From Sulfuriflexus mobilis (GTDB lineage: Bacteria > Pseudomonadota > Gammaproteobacteria > AKS1): DNA of 64,000 bases. The position numbers and the translations under genes were made by a program. Of the stretch, positions 46,623-64,000 are shown one piece after another; position 1 is the first letter of the stretch; the number at the start of each line of letters is the position of its first letter. The notes beneath the pieces were generated by a model. It searched no databases. It was not told the DNA's origin and worked only from the letters and a program-made list of their open reading frames with translations. Location of the stretch: contig NZ_AP018725.1 in the NCBI RefSeq assembly GCF_003967195.1, positions 1,550,001-1,614,000 of the forward strand, in the 5' to 3' direction.

Positions 46623-47699
46623 ATGACCTATTTTACAAAGTTATACCACCCCCCCGGCACCTCGCCGGGCACCCTGACTGAGAGAGTTTTGCCAACGACT
46701 GGTGAAGTCAGGATCAACCTGATTGATTACTCTGATAGCAACTTTATAGAAAAACAACTGGCCACTGCAGAGGATTGCCTGCCGTTCCTGAAACAGCCCA
46801 CGATTAGCTGGATCCATATCCAGGGCCAAGCCACCCCAAAAACCCTGCAGGAATTTGCGGACATATTTTCACTCCACTCGCTGGCACTGGAGGATATTCT
46901 CAACACCGGTCAGCGGCCAAAAGTCGAAACCTATGATACTCAGATATTTGCCATAACCAGCCTGCCGGTTATGCTAGATGGCGTCACCATCAGCGAACAG
47001 GTCAGTATCTTTACCGGTAAAGATTACATAATCAGTTTCTACACGGGTACCAGCGACCCCTTTGAGCCTGTACGCAAACGACTGCGTAATCACAGCGGAA
47101 AGATCCGATCACGTAAGGCCGACTATCTGTTGTATTGTCTATTGGATATCATCATCGACGAAGGCTTTCCTGTACTGGAGAGTTTCGGTGAACAAGTCGA
47201 AGTCCTAGAGGAAGAATTGCTGGAGAAACCTGGCAGAAACACCCTGAGAAAGCTGCATGCAATCAAGCGCGAACTATTATTACTGCGCCGTATGTTGTGG
47301 CCCCAGCGCGAACTACTCAACAAACTCATCCGTGATGAAAATGAGCTTTTGCATGAAGACACCAAAGTCTATCTGCGTGATTGCTATGACCATACCGTGC
47401 AAATAATGGACCTGCTTGAGACTTACCGTGACATGACGGCAAGTATGCTGGATGTTTACCTTTCCAGCATTAGTTACCGATTGAACGATGTCATGCGTGT
47501 ATTAACAATCATTGCCACTATTTTTATCCCACTGACCTTCATCGTCGGTGTCTACGGCATGAATTTTACTGTTAACACCAATAGTCCCTGGGCAATGCCG
47601 GAACTAAACTGGTATTACGGGTACCCGGCGCTATGGGGTCTGATGATCTGCATTGCAGCTGGCATGATTATTTATTTCAAACGCAAAGGCTGGTTTTAA
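46623..47699 (+). CDS. corA: CorA magnesium/cobalt transporter
   Basis: A 358-residue protein with the CorA architecture: a cytoplasmic N-terminal funnel (about 1-290) of alpha/beta and long helices, then two C-terminal membrane helices. The selectivity signature YGMN is present in FIVGVYGMNFTV at the end of the first helix. Pentameric CorA lets Mg2+ enter along its gradient. The second CorA-type gene follows within 32 nt, suggesting an operon of two related channels. Confidence 0.92.
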   Translation: MTYFTKLYHPPGTSPGTLTERVLPTTGEVRINLIDYSDSNFIEKQLATAEDCLPFLKQPTISWIHIQGQATPKTLQEFADIFSLHSLALEDILNTGQRPKVETYDTQIFAITSLPVMLDGVTISEQVSIFTGKDYIISFYTGTSDPFEPVRKRLRNHSGKIRSRKADYLLYCLLDIIIDEGFPVLESFGEQVEVLEEELLEKPGRNTLRKLHAIKRELLLLRRMLWPQRELLNKLIRDENELLHEDTKVYLRDCYDHTVQIMDLLETYRDMTASMLDVYLSSISYRLNDVMRVLTIIATIFIPLTFIVGVYGMNFTVNTNSPWAMPELNWYYGYPALWGLMICIAAGMIIYFKRKGWF

Positions 47700-47731
47700 G
47701 ATTTTCAATTGGCCCTATACAGGTAATATCT

Positions 47732-48712
47732 ATGAGCAATAATAATACTCAAGGGCTTATATCCTCCTATCTCCTCGACGGCAAAGGTGGAGGGAAATCA
47801 TTAAGCTGGGATGATATTTATAAGGATACTTCAGCATCCGGGGTCACCTGGCTGCACCTCGACTACACTCACCCGAAATCACAGGATTGGCTTAAAAACA
47901 AAAGCGGCCTCGACCCCATAATCATTGAGGCACTGCAGGCCGAGGAAACCAGGCCCCGCGGGGTTTTGATGCAAGATGGTTTATTGGTCACTCTGCGTAG
48001 TGTCAACATGAATCCTGGCGCCGAACCTGAAGACATGGTGTCTATCAGAGTCTGGATTGATAAAAATCGCATTATCAGTACGCGACATCGCCGTCTGCTG
48101 TTTATGGACGACATTCGAGAAAGTATAGAACTTGGTCTGGGGCCAAAAATGCCTGGTGAATTTCTAGTGCATTTGGCTGACCGCCTGAGTGAACGCATGG
48201 CTTATGTCATCGATAATGTCGATGAAACAGTAGACAAACTGGAAGAAGAAGTATTAACGGCAGAGAGTTACCAGCTGCGCGCAAAGATTGCTAATGTCCG
48301 CCGCGAGACAATTGAGTTGCGGCGTTATCTAGCCCCTCAACGTGAAGCCATGTCACGGCTGTATAATGAACGCGTTGAGTGGCTGACAGATGTAGATCGT
48401 ATGCACCTACGTGAGACTGCCGACAGGACCATGCGTTACATTGAGGACCTTGATTCCGCCCGTGACCGGGCCACGGTTACCCATGAGGAATTACTCAGTC
48501 GTTTGTCTGAACAGATGGATCGCAGAATGTATGTGCTTTCAATTGTTGCCGCAGTATTTTTACCGCTCGGATTTCTGACCGGACTGTTGGGTATCAATGT
48601 TGGCGGTATCCCTGGTGCCGAAGACAAAAATGCCTTCCTGGAATTTATTATTATACTTGGCGTGGTAGTGGTATTTCAGATAACACTATTCAAATGGAAA
48701 AAATGGATGTAG
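47732..48712 (+). CDS. zntB: ZntB-like CorA-family transporter
   Basis: A 326-residue CorA-superfamily protein. After a cytoplasmic domain and a long helix (about 180-270), two membrane helices follow. The loop reads GINVGGIPG, the signature that separates ZntB (zinc transport) from true CorA (GMN). In Salmonella, ZntB was first described as a zinc exporter and later as a proton-coupled importer, so the direction cannot be assumed. The start at 47732 was chosen because the frame upstream overlaps corA and lacks a family match. Confidence 0.9.
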   Translation: MSNNNTQGLISSYLLDGKGGGKSLSWDDIYKDTSASGVTWLHLDYTHPKSQDWLKNKSGLDPIIIEALQAEETRPRGVLMQDGLLVTLRSVNMNPGAEPEDMVSIRVWIDKNRIISTRHRRLLFMDDIRESIELGLGPKMPGEFLVHLADRLSERMAYVIDNVDETVDKLEEEVLTAESYQLRAKIANVRRETIELRRYLAPQREAMSRLYNERVEWLTDVDRMHLRETADRTMRYIEDLDSARDRATVTHEELLSRLSEQMDRRMYVLSIVAAVFLPLGFLTGLLGINVGGIPGAEDKNAFLEFIIILGVVVVFQITLFKWKKWM

Positions 48713-48751: not shown

Positions 48752-49255
48752 CTATTTTGCTAAGCCCGCCTCGCTGCACAGCGGTTTTTTTGTGAAGGTC
48801 TTTGCCGGGTCAATGATAAAGTGTTGCTCGAGGAAAGAACGACCAATTAAAAGCTGGTAATTCATGCCTTTACGATCGACAAGATTGACTTCAGTTTGCC
48901 GGTAAGTGCCAGACAGACATATCCCCAGTTTAATCACAGGCCTTTTCTGTGATTCGCCGAAATGGCGCTTAATCGTTCCCATGCGTTCGATTTTGCGCTC
49001 AAGCGTAAGGGCCGTGCCAATGCCATCTTTAATTGTAAAGCGGATCCATTTTTTTCCATTACGCTCTATAAAATTAAAGCATTCACAACCCAGCGAGGTC
49101 GTCTTGGCCCCCGTATCAAGCTTGGCCTTTAATTCAATACCGCCCGGATATATACGGGCATTCTCTACCCACCCCAGCACTTCCTTCGCCGCAATTGTCT
49201 GGTTGAGGCAAAGGAGTGTGATTAATGCCAAAAGAAAATAATAGATTTTACGCAT
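48752..49255 (-). CDS. Exported retropepsin-like 'ATP-dependent zinc protease' family protein
   Basis: A 167-residue protein with a clear signal peptide (YYFLLALITLLCLNQTIAA) and an aspartic-protease-like motif LDTGAKTTSLG in the family annotated as putative ATP-dependent zinc protease (RimB-like). It should act in the periplasm. Family members accompany RimK-type ATP-grasp ligases and the 7TM transglutaminase-like protein; here the divergent neighbour is that 7TM protein. A role in cleaving or trimming ligase-modified peptides is the usual hypothesis, not established for this protein. Confidence 0.8.
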   Translation of the reverse strand: MRKIYYFLLALITLLCLNQTIAAKEVLGWVENARIYPGGIELKAKLDTGAKTTSLGCECFNFIERNGKKWIRFTIKDGIGTALTLERKIERMGTIKRHFGESQKRPVIKLGICLSGTYRQTEVNLVDRKGMNYQLLIGRSFLEQHFIIDPAKTFTKKPLCSEAGLAK

Positions 49256-49399
49256 ACGCGTACACCTTGTGCTTAAGACTTACCCCGACCCGGATGCTTT
49301 CCGTTTGTTTTCGAGTTTCCCAGAGTAAAATAACTATACACCATGACACTAATAATTTATATTGGCCAGCATACTAAACCACCATTTTCCTTAATAAAA

Positions 49400-49411
49400 A
49401 CAGTATACTGT
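49400..49411. promoter_or_regulatory. 12-bp palindrome in the divergent protease/7TM spacer
   Basis: ACAGTATACTGT is a perfect palindrome 34 nt before the start of the 7TM gene and within the shared promoter region of the two divergent genes (49256-49445). It contains TATACT, which could be a -10 box for the 7TM gene, so the palindrome could equally be a chance feature of a promoter. Confidence 0.35.
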
Positions 49412-49445
49412 AGGCCATAAGACAAACCCAAAAACAACGATAACC

Positions 49446-51071
49446 ATGCGAAAATTGATTGCACAGAAAAAAGCAGCGGCTGGATATACCCTATGGGTCA
49501 TTATTGTGCTTACTATCATTGGAATAGCAGCGATTTCGGCTCGTCTCATGCTATCCGAGCAATTCAAGGTTCCTGGTGGCGATACCATTTGGACGGTGAA
49601 TATTGCTATCCAGATCCCGCCCGCATCCAGGAATGCGCGTATACAAATCTCTCCCCCCTGGGATACAAAACACAGTCGCGTCATTGCACAGAAGCTCAAT
49701 CATCCTGGTCTGCGATTTGTACGCGGGCGATCGGATGACAAACAAAAAAGGGTTATTGATCTAAAGGTTATCTCAGAAGAAATCTCCTACCTGAACGCTG
49801 AATTTACTACGCATCTGAGCGTTATACCTTTATTAAGAGTGAAACAGCCATCGCTGCCTTTATCGCTCGAGAAACGAATGGAGTATCTTGGTTCAAGTGA
49901 CGACATTCACGTAGAAAGTCCTGCTGTCATCAATACACTGAAAAAGATTAGCGTCAGCACCGAGGATAAAACAAAGTTAGCAGAGGATATATTTGAATAT
50001 GTAAATTCCAGAATCATCAAGGATACCAGGCCTGGAAAGAATAACCTAGATAAAGCCCTGAAATCAGGACATGCCTCTACTTTGGTTCGTGCCAAAATAA
50101 TGGTCGCATTAAGCCGTGCGGCTGGAATCCCCGCTCGTATCGTCAGCGGCTTCATCCTTGAAGAAACATTCGATGCCATGCTGTATTACTGGGTTGAACT
50201 GTATCAGGATGAGGGCTGGGTGGCCTATGATCCCGAGAAAGGATATAAAAACACGCTGCCAAATAACTTCTTACCTTTTAACAAAGGTAACGCTGCGATC
50301 GTTATTTCAGAAAAGCCTGTTTCAATTTCCTATGATATAGAACAGCGTTTTGACCCGGAGGGCTTTAATCTATCTACGGAAAAGAGGGTCCGGGATATAT
50401 TTGATCTGGAGAGGTTTCAGATCAGCACCCGCAACACACTCGCTGTAATCCTTCTGCTTCCATTTGGTGCCTTGATTACCACATTGATAAGAACTTTTTT
50501 AGGCATCCGGAGCTATGGCACCTTCACCCCAACACTTATTGCCTTAGCAGCGGTCTATGCCGACTGGGTGATTGCAGTCGTATTGTTAACCATTGTAATT
50601 GCCTTGGGAATGACCGGCAGAACAATTATCCCCGGGAAATTATTGCGTGTACCGCGCCTATCCATAGTTTTTACGATTGTTGCCATGAGTATGGCTATGG
50701 GCGTGTCGCTCATGGATTATTTCGATTATAGTCAGGGGGCACATGTGGTCTTACTGCCGATCGTTATTTTAACGACATTGATTGACCGATTTTACAGTGC
50801 CGCAGATGAGGATGGTATAAAACTGGCCATCAGACGTCTTATCTGGACCATAATTATAGCCATGGCTTGTTATTCGGTATTAAGGCTTGATGACCTTGGA
50901 CACTCACTTTTAGCGTTTCCGGAAATACACTTCTTTACCCTGGCGCTTGTCTTGCTGGTATCCCTATATAAAGGTAAAAAAGTCAGCGATGTCCCATACT
51001 TTTACTGGTTGGCTGAACCGAAAAAGAAGAAAAAGAAGGGCTCTGATGAGACAGTCGAGAATAATTTATGA
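49446..51071 (+). CDS. Inactive transglutaminase-like protein fused to 7 membrane helices
   Basis: A 541-residue membrane protein. An N-terminal helix (about 15-35) leads to a periplasmic domain, then a transglutaminase-like core around AGIPARIVSGF and WVELYQDEGWVAYDPEKG. The catalytic Cys and His are not present: the segment before AGIPAR has GHASTLV, and the His position before WVEL is Tyr. A membrane domain of about seven helices follows (from about 340 to 515), and the tail is Lys-rich. It matches the family of inactive transglutaminases joined to 7TM that is found beside RimK-like ligases. The customary ligase gene is not next to it here; a calcium pump follows convergently. Confidence 0.82.
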   Translation: MRKLIAQKKAAAGYTLWVIIVLTIIGIAAISARLMLSEQFKVPGGDTIWTVNIAIQIPPASRNARIQISPPWDTKHSRVIAQKLNHPGLRFVRGRSDDKQKRVIDLKVISEEISYLNAEFTTHLSVIPLLRVKQPSLPLSLEKRMEYLGSSDDIHVESPAVINTLKKISVSTEDKTKLAEDIFEYVNSRIIKDTRPGKNNLDKALKSGHASTLVRAKIMVALSRAAGIPARIVSGFILEETFDAMLYYWVELYQDEGWVAYDPEKGYKNTLPNNFLPFNKGNAAIVISEKPVSISYDIEQRFDPEGFNLSTEKRVRDIFDLERFQISTRNTLAVILLLPFGALITTLIRTFLGIRSYGTFTPTLIALAAVYADWVIAVVLLTIVIALGMTGRTIIPGKLLRVPRLSIVFTIVAMSMAMGVSLMDYFDYSQGAHVVLLPIVILTTLIDRFYSAADEDGIKLAIRRLIWTIIIAMACYSVLRLDDLGHSLLAFPEIHFFTLALVLLVSLYKGKKVSDVPYFYWLAEPKKKKKKGSDETVENNL

Positions 51072-51185: not shown

Positions 51186-53810
51186 TTAGTTACTGTTGTA
51201 AAGAATACCACGACGCACCAGCCACTTTTCAATTTCCACCGCCAGTAAAACCAGTGAGGACAATGCCAGGCAAACGGCAAGGTCGAACATCGGCAGGGCC
51301 TGGGTATGAAATATGCTATTCAGCGCAGGCACATAAATCACCGCCATCTGTAACAGCAGTGTTAGCAATACTGCAGCCAGCATCGGCAGGTTACTGAGCA
51401 AGCCTATGCGAAACAGTGAGGCTCTTTCGCTACGTACAGCCAGTGAGTGAAACAGCTGCGACACGGTAAGTACCGTAAATACCACCGTCTGCCAGTACTC
51501 CACCTCACGGGAAATCGCCCAGGCCATGGCAGCAATGGAAATGCCACCAATAAACAGCCCCACCCAGACGATATGCTGCCACATGCCATGAGCAAAGATA
51601 TTTTCCTCCGGCGGCCGCGGCCGGCGACGCATTATACCCGGCTCGGCAGGCTCGGCAGTCAAGGCCAACCCCGGCAGTCCGTCAGTAACCAGGTTGATCC
51701 AGAGGATATGAATGGGCAACAAGGGTATCGGCAAGCCGAGAAACGGTGCGAGGAACAATGCCCATATCTCGCCTGAATTGGAACTCATCGTATACTTGAT
51801 AAACTTGCGAATGTTATCAAAGATCCGACGGCCGGCCCGCACCGCACGAACGATGGAGGCAAAGTCATCATCCAGCAACACCATATCCGATGCCTCACGC
51901 GCCACATCAGTGCCCTTCTGCCCCATCGCGATGCCGATACCTGCGCGTTTCAGGGCCGGTGCATCGTTCACACCATCACCGGTCATGGCAACAAATTCGC
52001 CGTTTATCTGTAAGGCCTTGACGATGCGGAGTTTCTGTTCGGGCGTAACGCGCGCATACACCCGGACTGATTCAACAACACGGGCAAATTTTTCATCCGT
52101 CAGTTTCGCCAGCTCGTCACCGGTGAGCATGGCCTGCTTATCATCCGTGATACCGAGGCGATGGGCGATGGCCATGGCGGTACCCGGATGGTCGCCGGTG
52201 ATCATGACCGGGGTGATCCCCGCCGTCAGGCAATCCGCCACCGCCTGCGGTACTTCAGGCCGCGGTGGATCGATCAGGGCCACCAGGCCCAGAAACGTCA
52301 AATCCTGTTCGGTCGTCTCCGCGTCCAATGGCTGCGGCAGCGCAGTAAATTCACGCTTGGCGAATGCCAGTACCCGGTAACCCTCGTTGGCCAGTTGCTG
52401 TGCTTCGGCCAATACGGCAGCTGGCTCAAATACCGTAGGCCCATCTTTACCCACAGTCATGTTACATTGCGCCAGTAGCCGTTCCGGGGCACCTTTGATA
52501 TAGGCGATCACACCATCAGGTGACTGATGCAGCGTGGTCATCTGCTTGCGTTTACTATCAAACGGGATGGCGGCCAGCCGCGGTCTCACCTGTTCCAGTG
52601 TAGCCTTGTCGAAACCGGCCTTACCTGCTGCCTCAAACAGAGCCAGTTCCGTCGGCTCACCGGCAGGTTTACCATCCCTCTCCGCCACATCATTGTTCAT
52701 GGCCATGGCCTGTCCCAGCTCTGCCCAAGGGTCACTTGCCTGTGGGTCAGGCAATGACGTATGCCGCTCACCTGTGGCATAGAACAACTCAACGGTCATG
52801 TGGTTCTGTGTTAGCGTACCGGTCTTATCGGCACAGATATAGGTCACTGAGCCGAGCGTCTCCACCGCTGGCAGATTACGCACCAGGGCATTGTGCCGAA
52901 TCAGCTTGTGCGCACCAAGGGCAAGCGAGATCGTCACCACGGCCGGCAGTGCCTCCGGTATCGCGGCAACGGCCAGACTCACGGCAGTCAAAAACATCAA
53001 CAATACCGGCTGGCCTTGTAACAATCCGGCCGTAAACACTATCGCACAAATGGCCAGAACAGCCAGGGCAAGGTAACGACCGAAGCGGGTCAAACGTATT
53101 TGTAACGGTGTCTTTACACCGGCCTCTCCACGCAGTAGTTCGGCGATACGGCCAATCTCTGTGTCCAGACCGGTAGCAACCACAACACCCAGGCCACGTC
53201 CACGGGTGATCAGGCTACTCTTGAAGGCAAGATTCTGACGGTCGCCCAGTGGCAGGTCGGTTTCGCCTAATCGCTCATGCTGCTTTTCGGCGGGATGAGA
53301 TTCTCCGGTCAGGGCTGATTCATCGGCCAGCATTTCTTCCACTTCCAGCAGACGCAAATCGGCAGGTACAATATTGCCCGCTTCCAGCAATACTATATCC
53401 CCTGGCACCAGTTCCAGCGCCGCCAGGGTAACCGTTTGACCATCGCGCAACACTCGTGCCTCTGGCGCAGCCATTTCCCGCAAGGCCGCTACGGCGCGCT
53501 CGGCCCTGAATTCCTGCACCGCACCGATTATGGCATTGAGCAACACGATCACCAGAATGGCAATCGTATCCTGGGGTTCACCGATAAAACCGGAAATCAA
53601 TGCTGCCACCAACAACACGACGATCATGAAATCGGTAAACTGCCCAACAAGTATGCCCAACAAGGAACGACGTCGTTTTTCGGGAATGGAATTCAGACCG
53701 TGTTCAGCCAGACGTTTTTGAGCATCTTCTGTGCTCAGACCGGCTACAGAAGACGCCAGGTGCAGCAATGCTTCGTCAGCCTCAATACTGTACCACTTAA
53801 TTGGTGACAT
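51186..53810 (-). CDS. Calcium-type P-type ATPase (PacL/PMR1-like)
   Basis: An 874-residue type IIA pump. Motifs: TGES in the actuator (near residue 168), M4 VAAIPEALPA, phosphorylation site CADKTGTLTQN with Asp328, [13 protein letters not shown] and the M6 ion site NLVTDGLPGLALTAEPAE. The M4 and M6 residues match Ca2+ (or Mn2+) pumps, unlike the other P-type ATPase in the window. The ATG at 53810 lies one base after the stop of the upstream VIT-like gene and has AGGG at 7 nt. The upstream in-frame ATG at 53825 lies inside that gene. Confidence 0.9.
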   Translation of the reverse strand: MSPIKWYSIEADEALLHLASSVAGLSTEDAQKRLAEHGLNSIPEKRRRSLLGILVGQFTDFMIVVLLVAALISGFIGEPQDTIAILVIVLLNAIIGAVQEFRAERAVAALREMAAPEARVLRDGQTVTLAALELVPGDIVLLEAGNIVPADLRLLEVEEMLADESALTGESHPAEKQHERLGETDLPLGDRQNLAFKSSLITRGRGLGVVVATGLDTEIGRIAELLRGEAGVKTPLQIRLTRFGRYLALAVLAICAIVFTAGLLQGQPVLLMFLTAVSLAVAAIPEALPAVVTISLALGAHKLIRHNALVRNLPAVETLGSVTYICADKTGTLTQNHMTVELFYATGERHTSLPDPQASDPWAELGQAMAMNNDVAERDGKPAGEPTELALFEAAGKAGFDKATLEQVRPRLAAIPFDSKRKQMTTLHQSPDGVIAYIKGAPERLLAQCNMTVGKDGPTVFEPAAVLAEAQQLANEGYRVLAFAKREFTALPQPLDAETTEQDLTFLGLVALIDPPRPEVPQAVADCLTAGITPVMITGDHPGTAMAIAHRLGITDDKQAMLTGDELAKLTDEKFARVVESVRVYARVTPEQKLRIVKALQINGEFVAMTGDGVNDAPALKRAGIGIAMGQKGTDVAREASDMVLLDDDFASIVRAVRAGRRIFDNIRKFIKYTMSSNSGEIWALFLAPFLGLPIPLLPIHILWINLVTDGLPGLALTAEPAEPGIMRRRPRPPEENIFAHGMWQHIVWVGLFIGGISIAAMAWAISREVEYWQTVVFTVLTVSQLFHSLAVRSERASLFRIGLLSNLPMLAAVLLTLLLQMAVIYVPALNSIFHTQALPMFDLAVCLALSSLVLLAVEIEKWLVRRGILYNSN

Positions 53811-53811
53811 C

Positions 53812-54396
53812 TTAATGCCCTGCAAACAGATAGATAAGTGCGGCAGTCATTACGGCAACCAACAAGGTCTGCAGACCGCTGCGTAGCCATGATATGTCTG
53901 CGATGCGGCCAAGAAAAACGCCAAGCAGAAAGATAAGCAGCAGCGCGATAATAATGGCGGCATAAAGCGGTGATAAAGGCAGGGGAATACCCGCGCTCGA
54001 TAACCATAACGGTATCAGGATCAGAAGTGAAATAATGAGAGGCGCTGCACCGTTAACCAGGGCGATTAATAATGGTACCAGGCGCGCCGCCTCACCATGC
54101 GCACTTTCCTGAAGATCGGTGACCATCGCGCCTTCGAGCTTTCCCAGGGCACGTTTTCGTTCTGCCGCCTCACTAACATAGGCGCTACTCAATCCACTCA
54201 TTCCCAGTGCAATCGCTGCACCCAGGCAGGCATTAATAATGACCGATAAATCAGCAGATGTACTCAGGAGAAACCCGATAATAAGACCCAGCATGGTGAG
54301 TGCGCCATCAAAGCCGTTGACCACAAAATAGCGCCGCACAATGTCGTGGGTACGGGTGATGCGCAACAGAAATCTTACCTGGTGTAACAGACTCAC
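53812..54396 (-). CDS. VIT1/CCC1-like membrane transporter
   Basis: A 194-residue protein with about five membrane helices. The start of helix 1 reads FVVNGFDGALTMLGLIIGF, close to the conserved GxxDGLxT pattern of vacuolar iron transporter/CCC1 proteins, and a cytoplasmic helical segment (VSEAAERKRALGKLEG) follows helix 2. Family members move Fe2+ or Mn2+. It is the middle gene of DUF211 - VIT - calcium pump, with gaps of 6 and 1 nt. The iron-binding cytoplasmic domain of plant VIT1 is reduced here, so the ion is uncertain. Confidence 0.78.
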   Translation of the reverse strand: MSLLHQVRFLLRITRTHDIVRRYFVVNGFDGALTMLGLIIGFLLSTSADLSVIINACLGAAIALGMSGLSSAYVSEAAERKRALGKLEGAMVTDLQESAHGEAARLVPLLIALVNGAAPLIISLLILIPLWLSSAGIPLPLSPLYAAIIIALLLIFLLGVFLGRIADISWLRSGLQTLLVAVMTAALIYLFAGH

Positions 54397-54402
54397 GACA
54401 GG

Positions 54403-54666
54403 TTAATCAGCTTCACTTTGTACCTCCACTTCGTCTATGCTGTGAAGCGACCCGCCGATACTGGTTATAGTAGACTCGATCATCTCAAAATCGATAGCAC
54501 TTCCTTGCACCTCAACCTGAATCGTTTCAGTATCCTCATCCACCTCAAGAACGGTCAAACGTACCCGATAATCGACTCCTATCTCGGCAATGGCCCGGGA
54601 AAACTCCAGGGCATTCGGTTGATGCGGTTTAAGAATATCCAGAACGACCCTTCTGACGGAAACCAT
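54403..54666 (-). CDS. DUF211 family small protein
   Basis: An 87-residue ferredoxin-like fold protein. The family pattern VRRVVLDILKPHQPNALEF, followed by alternating strands and the C-terminal GGSLHSIDEV, is characteristic of DUF211, best known from archaea. The ATG at 54666 has AGGAG 7 nt upstream. It leads the operon with a VIT-like transporter and a calcium pump; a metal-sensing or chaperone role is inferred only from that context. Confidence 0.82.
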   Translation of the reverse strand: MVSVRRVVLDILKPHQPNALEFSRAIAEIGVDYRVRLTVLEVDEDTETIQVEVQGSAIDFEMIESTITSIGGSLHSIDEVEVQSEAD

Positions 54667-55016
54667 AGCGTTTCTCCTCGTCTGCTTTTCTTCATGCTGT
54701 CGCATGCTCTAAGTATCTCAATAAAGATACGATGCTGCTACAGCAAGCTGATTATATTTCCAATATTGACGCGACCTTTTCTGCTACTCAGACCGGGATA
54801 ATTATTTGTATCCGGGCGGGTCCTGATCCGGGATTATGTGCAGAGTAAATTCAAAGTCACTGTCAAAATAGCAGATTATCCTCCAGCCTGATAGTAGCTG
54901 TATCACTATAGGAAATGGGAGGCCATGAAGACATCGCCCTATTCTTCAGTCAAAAAATGTCTAAAATAACCCTGAAAAACATGCGAACCTCTTAACATCG
55001 CAATCAGGCTGATGAC
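54667..55016. other. Intergenic region without recognised gene
   Basis: About 350 nt between the DUF211 gene and the RimK-like gene, both on the minus strand. It holds the DUF211 promoter and the 3' end of the ligase transcript. No coding frame with a family match, RNA gene, strong hairpin or operator was seen. Confidence 0.6.
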
Positions 55017-56489
55017 TTATATCATCTTACGCTTATCCAAACGCCGTATGAATTCCTGCATGATACAGCGATACAACTCTTCCTTGAGGATCTTGTCCTC
55101 GACCCCGGCCTCGATACTGGGGTTATCGTTCACCTCGATGACATATACGCCATTGTCCGTCTGTTTAAGGTCGACACCGTAAAAACCATCGCCGATGAGA
55201 TTAGCCGCCTTCAGGGCTGTAGCCATCACTTCCCCGGGGGCATCCGCCACCGCCCAGGTTTTCCAGCCACCGGTGCTCACCTCGCCGCCATCACCATAGC
55301 GTACGATCTGCCAGTGTTTTTTCGACATAAAATACTGTGATGCATAGATGGGCTCACAATTAAGTACACCAATGCGCCAGTCAAACTCGGTGTATAGATA
55401 TTCCTGCGCCAGGATCAACTCCGAGGTTTTGAACAGGCGAGCGGTATATTCCTGTAACTGTTCCGGGGTCTCTGCCTTGTAGACGCCAAGGGAGAACGAG
55501 CCATCCGGCACCTTTAGCACCATCGGATAGCCAATAGCCACCTCTGCAGCATTGATATCGCCCTTGCCGACAATCACCGTTCGGGGGGTCGGTACACGAT
55601 TGGCGCGCAGTAGTTCGGCAAGAAATACCTTATTTGTGCAACGCAATATCGATTGGGGGTCGTCAATCACCACCATGCCCTCGCTTTCTGCCTTCTTAGC
55701 GAAGCGGTAGGTATAATGGTTGATGCGCGTCGTATCACGTATAAACAGTGCATCATATTCCGCCAGGCGCGCATAATCGCTACGCTCGATCAGTTCCACA
55801 TCGATACCCAGTGCGCGACCGGCCTTGATAAACTGGTTTAGTGCACGCGTGTCTGAGGGCGGCATGGGGTCATCGGGGTTATGCAGAACCGCCAGGTCGT
55901 AACGTGCCACACTGCGCGTTCGTGGTGATCGCCAGCGTCGTTGCAGGTAGCCAGCAAGTGCCCCGGCGAAGAACTCACGGTTATCGCTGTCAAGCTTGTC
56001 GACGCGAACAGGTTTGATAGCGACTAAATGCCATTCTTTATGTCGTCGGAAAGTGACCTGCAACAGGGGGTACGGAAACGTCTCAAATATCTGCCGCGCC
56101 AGTTCTGATAACTCAGGATAACGACATTGTCCGAAAAACACCTCCATCTCGAACAGCGATTCTATGCTGTCCTTACGGTGTCTGCGGAAACTCTTCTGAA
56201 CGACCTCATCAAGGTTGACGGCCTCCAGGCTGTACATGGCCTTGCTGCTTAAGTCCATCATGGTTTTGACGGAAGGTATGATGCGATGCCGGCGTGCCTC
56301 GGCCAGCAACGAGGTGTAATAGCCAACACTCTGGTAACGACTACTACGGCACAGGTTGATGACCTGTGTACCCTTGAGGTTAAAGTATTCCTGGCCGGTA
56401 AGATAATCATCTACGTGTACCAGTGGGCAGCCTACCTCAAGAAAATCCAGGTCAGCGGTGTTTTCTACAACAATGAGTTGCTGGGTCAT
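55017..56489 (-). CDS. RimK-like ATP-grasp ligase with RLAN N-terminal domain
   Basis: A 490-residue protein. The first ~200 residues form the RimK-like N-terminal (RLAN) domain. The C-terminal half is an ATP-grasp fold: PMVLKVPDGSFSLGVYKA (ATP lysine), LAQEYLYTEFDWRIGVL, and the metal-binding end YVIEVNDNPSIEAG. Such enzymes form amide bonds, adding glutamate or other amino acids to a protein or small molecule with ATP. Its start overlaps the stop of the GNAT-C39 gene (ATGA), so the pair is translationally coupled. The acceptor is unknown. Confidence 0.88.
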   Translation of the reverse strand: MTQQLIVVENTADLDFLEVGCPLVHVDDYLTGQEYFNLKGTQVINLCRSSRYQSVGYYTSLLAEARRHRIIPSVKTMMDLSSKAMYSLEAVNLDEVVQKSFRRHRKDSIESLFEMEVFFGQCRYPELSELARQIFETFPYPLLQVTFRRHKEWHLVAIKPVRVDKLDSDNREFFAGALAGYLQRRWRSPRTRSVARYDLAVLHNPDDPMPPSDTRALNQFIKAGRALGIDVELIERSDYARLAEYDALFIRDTTRINHYTYRFAKKAESEGMVVIDDPQSILRCTNKVFLAELLRANRVPTPRTVIVGKGDINAAEVAIGYPMVLKVPDGSFSLGVYKAETPEQLQEYTARLFKTSELILAQEYLYTEFDWRIGVLNCEPIYASQYFMSKKHWQIVRYGDGGEVSTGGWKTWAVADAPGEVMATALKAANLIGDGFYGVDLKQTDNGVYVIEVNDNPSIEAGVEDKILKEELYRCIMQEFIRRLDKRKMI

Positions 56490-57601
56490 GCCTGTTTAGC
56501 CTTTTTGCCTTTGTGTTTACGAATAATCAGTGCCGCGCGTTGTCCCGTCTTGCCGTAGCGTGCCATGCGTTCGAAATCCTTTTGCAGGATAGGCATGTTC
56601 ATACTGTCGATAACAGACTTACCCTTGTGTGTGTCGACATAGGGGTCATGCACATAAATGAAGCGGTCATCAAACCCCGTTACGACCACCCAGTGAGGAA
56701 ATTTCTCTTTATAAATACGATAGGAGCTGATCAGCACGACTGGAACGGCACCACTGTCGAATTCAGCATGGATTTCCCCTACGCTCAGGGGCCGGTAATG
56801 TATAGGCAACGGCAAGCGTTTTATCTCCTCGACAAAATCCTCTTCCACCAGTCGAATCACTTCCTTCTTTACTTCGCTACGTACCGAGTCAATGAACATG
56901 GTGCCGTCTTCATTCACGTAGATTTCCACATCAAAGCCGCGGTGATAAGCGGCCAGGGCGAGACCGTAGACACCACAGCCGCCATGACCGGAGGTCATGA
57001 AAACCGTAGTGGATTCACGCCATATACGGATCTCATGGCGACGTTCCAGTTCCATGTCCCCATCCAGGGCCTTCATTGCCATCATCAGTGCCGCCGGACC
57101 ACAGGTGAATTCCAGGCTCTGTTGGAAAAAGGGTACCGGCACCATGTCGGCGCGAAGATGCGGGGCAAGGCCCTTTTCGAAGCGCAGGGCATCCATGTGA
57201 TCTTCGTAATAATCGGCAACGCTACCGAACTTCCGGTAGCCGAGTTCTTCATATAGACGGATGGTGGCAATATTATCCTGGCGTACTTCCAGTCGCATGG
57301 AGACACAATCCTGTGCCAGGGCGGCATTCTCAGCGGCCTTGACCAGCTGTTTGGCAATGCTTTGTCCACGGAACGGTGGAGCAACAGCAATGGAATACAG
57401 GCGTGCCAGCGATGTGCCGGCATGGAACAGCAGCATGATATAACCACGCAGCTGCCCGTTGTCCTCATCCACCAGTGTCAGGGCATGCCCCTTACTGAGC
57501 AGATGACGAAAACTACGTCGGGACAATCGATCCGTGTCGAAACACAGATCTTCCAATGCCACCAGTGCACTCACATCATTCAGGGTCGCGGTTCTAATCA
57601 T
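56486..57601 (-). CDS. GNAT acetyltransferase fused to C39-like peptidase
   Basis: A two-domain protein of about 371 residues. The N-terminal GNAT domain (about 1-150) has LARLYSIAVAPPFRGQSIAK, the acetyl-CoA loop. The C-terminal papain-like C39 domain has the Cys in EFTCGPAALMMAM, the His in HWVVVTGF and the Asp in VHDPY, so the catalytic triad looks intact. It is not a leader peptidase of an ABC exporter because no transporter domain is present. Frames extend upstream, with possible starts at 57736 and 57673; 57601 places the GNAT fold at the N-terminus. It forms an operon with the RimK-like ligase and is divergent from argE. Confidence 0.82.
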   Translation of the reverse strand: MIRTATLNDVSALVALEDLCFDTDRLSRRSFRHLLSKGHALTLVDEDNGQLRGYIMLLFHAGTSLARLYSIAVAPPFRGQSIAKQLVKAAENAALAQDCVSMRLEVRQDNIATIRLYEELGYRKFGSVADYYEDHMDALRFEKGLAPHLRADMVPVPFFQQSLEFTCGPAALMMAMKALDGDMELERRHEIRIWRESTTVFMTSGHGGCGVYGLALAAYHRGFDVEIYVNEDGTMFIDSVRSEVKKEVIRLVEEDFVEEIKRLPLPIHYRPLSVGEIHAEFDSGAVPVVLISSYRIYKEKFPHWVVVTGFDDRFIYVHDPYVDTHKGKSVIDSMNMPILQKDFERMARYGKTGQRAALIIRKHKGKKAKQA

Positions 57602-57763: not shown

Positions 57764-58927
57764 ATGACACAGCCTGCTCCAACACTCTTGCAAATGATGC
57801 GCCAGCTGATCGGCACAGCCTCGATCAGCAGTGTCAGCCCGGAATTTGACCAGAGCAACCGCGATGTTATCGACCTCATGGCCAACTGGCTAAATACTCT
57901 GGGTTTTACCGTTGAGGTCCTGCCACTGGCAAGCCAGCCGCACAAGGCCAATCTTATTGCCACACTGGGCAAGGGGCCGGGTGGTCTGGTGCTTTCCGGG
58001 CATACCGACACGGTGCCCTATGACGAGGGCCAATGGAATAACGACCCTTTCAAGCTGACCGAGGCCGACAACCGCCTGTACGGCCTTGGCACCTCCGATA
58101 TGAAGGGCTTTTTTGCCCTTGCCATCGAAGCGGCACGCCATTATCAGGCGACCGACATGCGACAGCCATTGATCATTCTCGCTACTGCCGACGAGGAAAG
58201 CTCCATGGACGGGGCCAAGGAACTGGTACGCCTTGGCCGCCCCAAGGCACGTTATGCGGTCATCGGCGAGCCGACAGGGCTGCGCCCGATACATATGCAC
58301 AAGGGCATTATAATGGAGGCCGTTCACGTACACGGTCACTCGGGGCATTCCAGTAACCCCGCGCTCGGTGCCAACGCACTCGAAGGGATGCACAAGGTGC
58401 TCGGCGATCTGCTTGCCTGGCGTGATGAATTACAGGCGCAGCATATTGACCACCGTTTTGCCGTGCCGGTGCCCACCCTCAATCTTGGTCACATCCACGG
58501 TGGTGACAACCCCAATCGTATCTGTGGGCACTGTGAACTGCACTTCGACCTGCGGCCACTGCCGGGTATGGACCTTGGTGACTTGCGCCATGACCTCGAC
58601 AAACGCCTCACCGGACTGCTGGCGGGGAGTGCATTGCGGGCAGAACGCCAGTCCCTCATCGACGGTACGGACCCCATGCATACCCCCGTCGACTCGGCCA
58701 TCGTGCAGGCAGCTGAACGCCTGACCGGACACCCTGCCGAGGCCGTCGCCTTCTGCACTGAAGGCCCTTACCTGAATGCCCTCGGTATGGACAGTATCAT
58801 CCTTGGCCCCGGCGACATCGCCCAGGCCCATCAGCCGGATGAATACCTGGCCCTGGATCGTATCCAGCCGACCGTTGACCTGTTACAACAGCTAATCGAA
58901 CGCTTCTGTATCCAACCACAACGGTAA
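57764..58927 (+). CDS. argE: Acetylornithine deacetylase
   Basis: A 387-residue M20 family zinc hydrolase that removes acetate from N-acetylornithine in arginine synthesis. Metal-binding motifs are SGHTDTVPYDEGQW, YGLGTSDMKGFFAL and ATADEESSMDGA; the dimerisation domain has HSGHSSNP, and the C-terminus CTEGPYLNALG and AHQPDEYLA supplies the last ligand. The start at 57764 gives normal length; a TTG 36 nt upstream is possible. Its divergent neighbour is the GNAT-C39 protein, whose acetyltransferase domain is not evidently part of the same pathway. Confidence 0.92.
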   Translation: MTQPAPTLLQMMRQLIGTASISSVSPEFDQSNRDVIDLMANWLNTLGFTVEVLPLASQPHKANLIATLGKGPGGLVLSGHTDTVPYDEGQWNNDPFKLTEADNRLYGLGTSDMKGFFALAIEAARHYQATDMRQPLIILATADEESSMDGAKELVRLGRPKARYAVIGEPTGLRPIHMHKGIIMEAVHVHGHSGHSSNPALGANALEGMHKVLGDLLAWRDELQAQHIDHRFAVPVPTLNLGHIHGGDNPNRICGHCELHFDLRPLPGMDLGDLRHDLDKRLTGLLAGSALRAERQSLIDGTDPMHTPVDSAIVQAAERLTGHPAEAVAFCTEGPYLNALGMDSIILGPGDIAQAHQPDEYLALDRIQPTVDLLQQLIERFCIQPQR

Positions 58928-62756: not shown

Positions 62757-64000
62757 TTAGGCAACCGCACTACTGCTGTATTTTTCGAATGCCTGAAGAA
62801 CACATTTATCAGCATCACGGAACGCACGGAGACGGCTCGATGGTGAAGGAATATAATGGTTAAAATATTTCACACCTTCCGTCAATGGGCCAAGCATGTA
62901 TATACTTTCTTCCCTTTCACTGCGGTCATTAATAGGATGGAGATCTTCATCTATGTCAGCACTCCCCAAGGAAGTTTCACCAATGCAAAAGTCTCGCAAA
63001 CGTCCCTTTTTATACAGGTTTGCAATAAGTTCTGATGACGAATTATTTACGGTGGAGTGAGATATATAACCGTAGACGACCCTATCAAGTATCTCAGCAT
63101 GGTTTTCTGTTAATAAAGACGATTCAATCTTTACTTTACCAGTTTTATCATCGTCCGAAATATGTGGTGAAGGGCCAAACGGCACCTTAACTATTCCGGC
63201 ATCAATGAGCGCAAGCATTTCCTCTGATCTCTCTTTTGGCGGTCCCACTATTATGCGATTTATCATCGAGGCCGTGCGCACTTTAAACTGCACCAATGAG
63301 TCCGGGGATAAACCATCGAAATCAACTGCATAACGAATCGTTTCACGTAGAACCCTGAATAGCTCGAAGGCTGCCTTATAGGCGCTTTTCAACTCACCCT
63401 TATATGACTCGATCAAGTCGTCACGAATGAGTTTGCTAAACAGCCTTTGGTACTCATGGCTGTTCGATATATTTCTGGGTAACGGTTGTGTAAAATACTT
63501 TTCAGGGTCGAAATAACCATAGATTTCAGAGAGCTTTTCTATTTCATTATCAAATTCGCCCTTATCCCATGCATCCACAAGGCATGATGAAAGTCTATCC
63601 GCCGCACTGTCACCCTGTAGTATCTGTACACATGTTTCATAATAAACAAGCTTCATTTCGTCCCATAATAGCGGCATCAGATCAGTGACAAAATCCAACC
63701 CGGACCCTGCCTTTTTAGAGCGTAGGCTATCGATCATCTGGGTAGTGAAAAATCTCGCATTATAGCCAAAGCTCTCGACGCTTTTACTAATGGCAGGACG
63801 AGAACATGGTGGAATACCGGATCTGGAAAACATATATATATCTGGTTCATTGCCACTTGCGATATATCTTCTTTTGCCACCCGCGGTGTCACAGATATAC
63901 TTTCCACCTCGGCCTATAGTCAGCTCTGTGAGCACATCAATGGCTGCAAGGCCGAAACCCGCAATGCCAATTTTCTCACCCTGCGCAATCCCGGCCAGGT
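62757..64000 (-). CDS. FAD/NAD(P)-binding protein, 5' part beyond window
   Basis: The open frame runs from the stop at 62757 to the window end without a break (about 414 codons). At the N-terminal edge it shows a nucleotide-binding stretch KIGIAGFGLAAIDVLTELTI followed by GRGGKY and, further on, FSRSGIPPCSRPAI. That pattern is typical of the FAD-NAD(P)-binding (NAD_binding_9-like) proteins, which carry an uncharacterised oxidoreductase function. The C-terminal ~300 residues are mostly helical with no further recognised domain. A GTG at 63935 could serve as start but is inside the conserved nucleotide-binding segment, so the true start is probably upstream of the window. Confidence 0.68.
   Translation of the reverse strand, partial: LAGIAQGEKIGIAGFGLAAIDVLTELTIGRGGKYICDTAGGKRRYIASGNEPDIYMFSRSGIPPCSRPAISKSVESFGYNARFFTTQMIDSLRSKKAGSGLDFVTDLMPLLWDEMKLVYYETCVQILQGDSAADRLSSCLVDAWDKGEFDNEIEKLSEIYGYFDPEKYFTQPLPRNISNSHEYQRLFSKLIRDDLIESYKGELKSAYKAAFELFRVLRETIRYAVDFDGLSPDSLVQFKVRTASMINRIIVGPPKERSEEMLALIDAGIVKVPFGPSPHISDDDKTGKVKIESSLLTENHAEILDRVVYGYISHSTVNNSSSELIANLYKKGRLRDFCIGETSLGSADIDEDLHPINDRSEREESIYMLGPLTEGVKYFNHYIPSPSSRLRAFRDADKCVLQAFEKYSSSAVA

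Follow-up and report, generated by a model that had tools for sequence, protein, structure and literature searches.

An RLAN ATP-grasp ligase and a GNAT-C39 fusion protein form a conserved pair that may serve a small N-acylated peptide

Introduction

What does a bacterium make, or unmake, with an ATP-grasp ligase, an acetyltransferase and a papain-like peptidase encoded side by side? The question is raised by two overlapping genes of Sulfuriflexus mobilis, found in a stretch of 64,000 nucleotides of contig NZ_AP018725.1 that is called the window here. Iyer et al. 2009 are said, in an attribution made by PMC10318531, to have reported RLAN ATP-grasp proteins with GNAT-DUF3335 fusions. The pair in the window is identical to these catalogued cases in domains and in fusion, with no difference in domain content, and is a member of a known, catalogued but uncharacterised family combination in which RLAN is already a Pfam family. 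PMC10318531, citing Iyer et al. 2009, also describes DUF3335 as frequently fused to GNAT domains. The first-pass annotation had presented ATP-grasp/GNAT/protease neighbourhoods as known, and the combination is indeed recorded in Pfam and in the literature. A literature search for RLAN, DUF3335 and DUF2817 (one DUF3335 review) yielded no paper giving a function or substrate for the pair.

The two genes encode enzymes with intact active-site residues

The fusion gene lies upstream of the ligase gene, and the two share the nucleotides ATGA at 56486-56489, which agrees with the 4-nt overlap read by the first-pass annotation (Table 1).

Table 1. Features of the ligase and GNAT-C39 locus, in window coordinates
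Feature	Position	Strand	Details
GNAT - C39-like (DUF3335) fusion gene	56486..57601	(-)	371 aa, ATG at 57601
GNAT domain PF00583, about residues 2-140	57182..57598	(-)	Pfam 7e-18
C39-like papain-fold domain PF11814 DUF3335, residues 156-360	56522..57136	(-)	6e-87, 290.8 bits vs cut-off 25
C39 catalytic residues (371-aa numbering)			Q161, C167 (codon 57101-57103), H303 (56693-56695), D319 (56645-56647)
RLAN + RimK-like ATP-grasp ligase gene	55017..56489	(-)	490 aa
RLAN domain PF14401, residues 27-175	55965..56411	(-)	Pfam 3.7e-49, 166.7 bits vs cut-off 25
RimK-type ATP-grasp domain PF08443, residues 286-461	55107..55634	(-)	4.9e-10, 39.8 bits vs cut-off 21
argE-type M20 deacylase gene	57764..58927	(+)	TIGR01892 411 bits vs cut-off 297.7

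In the ligase, PF14401 and PF08443 both match above their curated cut-offs within one protein, which places it in the RLAN ATP-grasp ligase family, and K326, R372, D440, E452 and N454 of the ATP-grasp domain are invariant in 59 of 59 relatives. These matches and residues bear out the earlier call of an amide-forming ATP-grasp ligase. By sequence, the nearest solved structures are those of RimK/LysX.

We further investigated the RLAN domain through its AlphaFold2 model (pLDDT 86). The best Foldseek matches were the RimK-family ATP-grasp enzymes LysX/ArgX (5k2m, 3vpc), with a probability of 1.0 and a TM of about 0.6 on the query, and the alignments spanned 255-288 columns against a domain of 192 residues. 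Such lengths are as expected if the central ATP lid is missing, and RLAN is predicted to have a RimK-like fold without the ATP lid. An internal duplication of the ligase was rejected at sequence level: aligned with hhalign, RLAN and the ATP-grasp domain scored no better than column-shuffled profiles, with 79/150, 18/150 and 10/80 shuffles reaching the score. Because sequence profiles give no support, it is Foldseek that carries the reading of RLAN as a degenerate ATP-grasp domain.

The fusion protein belongs to the GNAT-DUF3335 family, with DUF3335 above its cut-off, placed behind the GNAT domain, and with its Cys-His-Asp residues kept; the first-pass description of an acetyltransferase joined to a papain-like peptidase with an intact triad thus holds for PF00583, PF11814 and C167/H303/D319. 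C167 and H303 are kept in 43 of 43 relatives, and the oxyanion residue Q161 in 42 of 42, while position 319 is D in 40 and E in 2 of 42. The acetyl-CoA loop of the GNAT domain reads RGQSIA, with G instead of S in 41 of 48 relatives. This domain is closest to N-terminal acetyltransferases and resembles those of the RimI type; RimI itself, the S18 N-acetyltransferase, was rejected at 72.6 bits, below the TIGR01575 cut-off of 86.4.

The model of the C39 domain (pLDDT 91) matches cyanobacterial phytochelatin synthase, a C39-like peptidase, PCAT1/ComA and CtaG with similar scores: phytochelatin synthase acyl-enzymes come first and CtaG lower, and hydrolytic C39 peptidases, leader peptidases included, score about equally. 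Phytochelatin synthase was rejected as an assignment by sequence, since a search of solved structures with the fusion protein returned GNAT structures only and the likeness is at fold level. The modelled match fits a Cys acyl-enzyme and would suit hydrolysis and transfer alike.

GNAT is the near-constant partner of the ligase

Whether the two families occur together had been proposed by the first-pass annotation as one of the observations on which its reading should stand or fall, and they do. Of 274 class genomes, sampled evenly, 62 carried RLAN and 43 gave a strong DUF3335 match; the RLAN ligase was present in 42 of these 43, at the same locus in 39, and the remaining genomes comprised three with the genes on different contigs and one without the ligase. 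In a second sample of 55 further DUF3335 genomes of the phylum, the ligase gene adjoined the DUF3335 gene in 52. This coupling exceeds chance. The paired genes are variously tandem, divergent or convergent, so their adjacency is not that of one frozen operon. Roughly one in six of the sampled class genomes has the pair, and its named relatives include many Pseudomonas species.

When the 62 RLAN genomes were sorted, 42 carried GNAT-C39, 13 carried a sister operon (some incomplete; described below), 6 had a GNAT-only or degenerate GNAT locus with DUF3335 nowhere in the genome, and one had neither. A GNAT gene adjoins the ligase gene in 75 of 80 named loci, many of them without C39 (Dyella, Rhodanobacter, Lysobacter), and GNAT-only loci arise several times on the ligase tree. 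Because several lineages free of DUF3335 combine the ligase with a GNAT-only gene, GNAT is the main co-conserved partner, and C39 is frequent but dispensable in loci of the window's type. The earlier proposal of amide formation, capping and cleavage in one module therefore stands in part: it fits the domains and the module is conserved, but the cleaving component is absent in several lineages.

The C39 domain could also be a transferase and not a hydrolase, accepting an acyl or peptidyl group on its Cys for transfer to an amine, in which case all three domains would be synthetic, as in phytochelatin synthase. The order of the fold matches and the conserved Cys, His and oxyanion Gln suit such an enzyme, but the near-equal scores of hydrolytic C39 peptidases do not, and repeated loss of C39 with GNAT and ligase kept is at least as easily explained by an optional processing step. 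We regard a transferase as rather improbable. A RiPP pathway, where a ribosomal precursor would receive lactam or amide links from the ligase and lose its leader to C39, is suggested by graspetide ligases such as PsnB, which match the RLAN model at lower rank in Foldseek, and by the leader removal known for C39 peptidases. It is very unlikely because the 600-bp flanks, compared across 48 loci, share no conserved small precursor ORF. When locus neighbourhoods were compared, neither an exporter nor a target gene was conserved beside the pair.

Two further observations concern these loci. A membrane protein gene of the DUF155 (RMND1/Sif2-like) family is a recurrent neighbour of the ligase loci, in one operon type as in the other (L088:5739-6533, L061, L079, L085, L105 and L121). 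At L072:5805-7243 of genome G151, the ligase frame is split over three ORFs and GNAT reads into the ligase, so that the locus looks frameshifted or decaying.

A sister operon and zinc hydrolases accompany the ligase family

The sister operon encodes a stand-alone C39-like peptidase, the ligase, a GCS2-type ligase (PF04107) and an N-formylglutamate amidohydrolase (FGase, PF05013). On the ligase tree, the RLAN ligases of this operon type make up one side of a single branch (support 100), and in this clade GCS2 and the amidohydrolase stand in place of GNAT. Free amino acids are the substrates of enzymes of the GCS2 family.

We then considered the hydrolases beside the pair. In the window, argE is divergent from the GNAT-C39 gene, and 162 bp separate the two start codons; of 39 class loci, 10 have ArgE next to the pair, and an M14 carboxypeptidase or DUF2817 protein neighbours others. 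The S. mobilis genome also encodes ArgJ, and genomes with ArgJ do not need ArgE for arginine. In the class sample, ArgE occurs in 32 of 43 GNAT-C39 genomes and in 81 of 231 others; among ArgJ-bearing genomes, it occurs in 30 of 40 with the module against 68 of 168 without (p=9e-5). M14 or DUF2817 neighbours were seen in 8 of 11 ArgE-less and 0 of 32 ArgE-bearing genomes of the class sample, and in 15 of 20 and 0 of 35, respectively, of the new genomes of the second sample, counts that are not independent, since one family makes up most of the second-sample cases. In gamma proteobacterium HdN1 and Methylomicrobium wino1, DUF2817 is present at the locus and the complete genome has no ArgE above cut-off. 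ArgJ was present in all 17 DUF2817/M14 genomes checked, so the neighbouring hydrolase is not needed there for arginine. At four ArgE-less loci without DUF2817 or M14, read by eye, no other obvious hydrolase was seen.

While the Fisher tests are striking, phylogenetically independent pairs gave about 3 for and 0 against (p=0.25, not significant), and we do not take the complementarity of ArgE with M14/DUF2817 as proof. The link between module and zinc hydrolases is suggestive: argE is a possible accessory of the module, and it could also be a chance or historical neighbour. In two relatives, argA adjoins argE. PMC3219624 describes the Shewanella protein SO_3749 as a non-homologous acetylornithine deacetylase and does not name its family, and the protein was set aside as support for a DUF2817 role.

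The ligase is distinct from RimK and related systems

Assignment of the ligase as RimK, the S6 glutamate ligase, was rejected on its scores (82.6 against 143.4 bits for TIGR00768, and 36.2 against 331 bits for NF007764). Another ORF, at 1.424 Mb of the genome, reaches 284 bits for TIGR00768 and lies between a gene for a RimB-like aspartic protease and an AstE-like gene, two neighbours identified by sequence. A different protein thus occupies the S6-type slot, making an S6 role less likely for the window's ligase; a protein target other than S6 may still be compatible with the separate operon.

The main rival to a small-peptide substrate is reversible protein modification, whereby the ligase would add amino acids to a protein C-terminus as RimK does on S6, GNAT would acetylate that or another end, and C39 would trim the tail. 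The nearest solved structures of the ligase and the kinship of the GNAT with N-terminal acetyltransferases speak for it, as does the ligase-protease precedent of RimK-RimB (PMC12239564). Against it stand the separate RimB-RimK operon, the use of GCS2 and N-formylglutamate amidohydrolase by the sister clade, and the lack of a conserved target gene adjoining the pair. We hold protein modification to be possible but on the unlikely side. A protein target, implied by the protein tails that the first-pass annotation proposed to look for, is not supported: the sister operon and the ArgE/DUF2817/M14 association point to a small molecule instead, and the genome has its own RimB-RimK operon.

The pair shares with RimK-RimB a branch of the ATP-grasp superfamily and the theme of a ligase with a protease, but its ligase has the extra RLAN domain and its partner is a Cys peptidase with a GNAT. 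NAGGN synthesis, by a GNAT fused to an ATP-grasp (TIGR03103), is a functional analogy in which the same logic yields an N-acetyl dipeptide; the window's pair has another domain order and no amidotransferase gene alongside, and was rejected as NAGGN synthetase (24.6 bits against a cut-off of 569). Chemistry of the glutathione/phytochelatin type resembles the sister operon, with its GCS2-type ligase, ATP-grasp and papain-fold enzyme, whereas the window's operon is without GCS2, its ligase is RimK-like and its C39 is related at fold level only.

The Rlo system, composed of the protease RloA, the inactive transglutaminase RloB and the ATP-grasp RloC (PMC12239564), shares the theme of ATP-grasp with protease, but has a secreted aspartic protease and a membrane protein and neither GNAT nor C39. 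RloA- and RloB-like genes do lie 4-8 kb from the pair: 48752-51071 holds a protease gene (PF05618, RimB/RloA-like) and, divergent from it, the gene of a 7TM protein of the inactive-transglutaminase kind, which is RloB-like (PF14402) and scores below the NF052267 cut-off; no ATP-grasp RloC gene lies beside them.

A proposed role in making and turning over a small peptide

We tentatively favour, at somewhat less than even confidence, a cytoplasmic module whose product, built and later broken down again, would be a short N-acylated peptide or amino-acid conjugate. GNAT would acetylate an amino acid or dipeptide at its amino group, and the RLAN/ATP-grasp ligase would activate a carboxylate as acyl phosphate and attach an amino acid, which in RimK relatives is glutamate or a similar one. 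C39 would then cut or transfer the amide via a Cys acyl-enzyme, and the N-acyl product would be recycled by a zinc amidohydrolase, which is ArgE in the window and DUF2817 or M14 at other loci. Conservation and intact active-site residues are observed and each domain is assigned its chemistry by family, while we infer the order of steps, the substrates and the product.

A small-molecule substrate is preferred over S6-like protein tailing because of the sister operon, with its GCS2 and N-formylglutamate amidohydrolase, and the ArgE/DUF2817/M14 association. Co-conservation in two samples and the prevalence of GNAT beside the ligase favour the small peptide, as do ArgE enrichment, the restriction of M14/DUF2817 to ArgE-less genomes, and the separate RimK; the modelled C39 match to phytochelatin synthase, which cleaves glutathione, would favour it too. 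Counted against it are the hydrolase pattern, which falls short of significance in independent pairs, the C39 fold, equally like that of leader peptidases, and the resemblance of the GNAT to RimI-type protein N-terminal acetyltransferases. If true, the small-peptide model predicts an undiscovered metabolite, a testable deacylase role for DUF2817 and an additional function for the arginine enzyme ArgE.

A broader proposal, which we consider unlikely, is that RLAN ligases mark a widespread pathway of N-capped small peptides that has gone unrecognised and exists in two versions, one N-acetyl (GNAT, with ArgE, DUF2817 or M14 as interchangeable deacylases) and one gamma-glutamyl (GCS2 with N-formylglutamate amidohydrolase), RLAN being a degenerate ATP-grasp half. 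Such a pathway would help to account for the retention of ArgE in many bacteria that have ArgJ. Neither the split into two operons nor the complementarity of the hydrolases was found described in searchable papers, and Iyer et al. 2009 may list some of the neighbourhoods.

Elsewhere in the window, two overlapping ORFs for CorA-type Mg2+ transporters stand in tandem at 46623-48712 and look like a duplication. Downstream of the ligase, a minus-strand cluster at 51186-54705 encodes a P-type cation ATPase, a VIT1-like membrane protein and a DUF211 protein, of a family described by Pfam as archaeal. At 62757-63935 lies a 392-aa ORF with no Pfam match.
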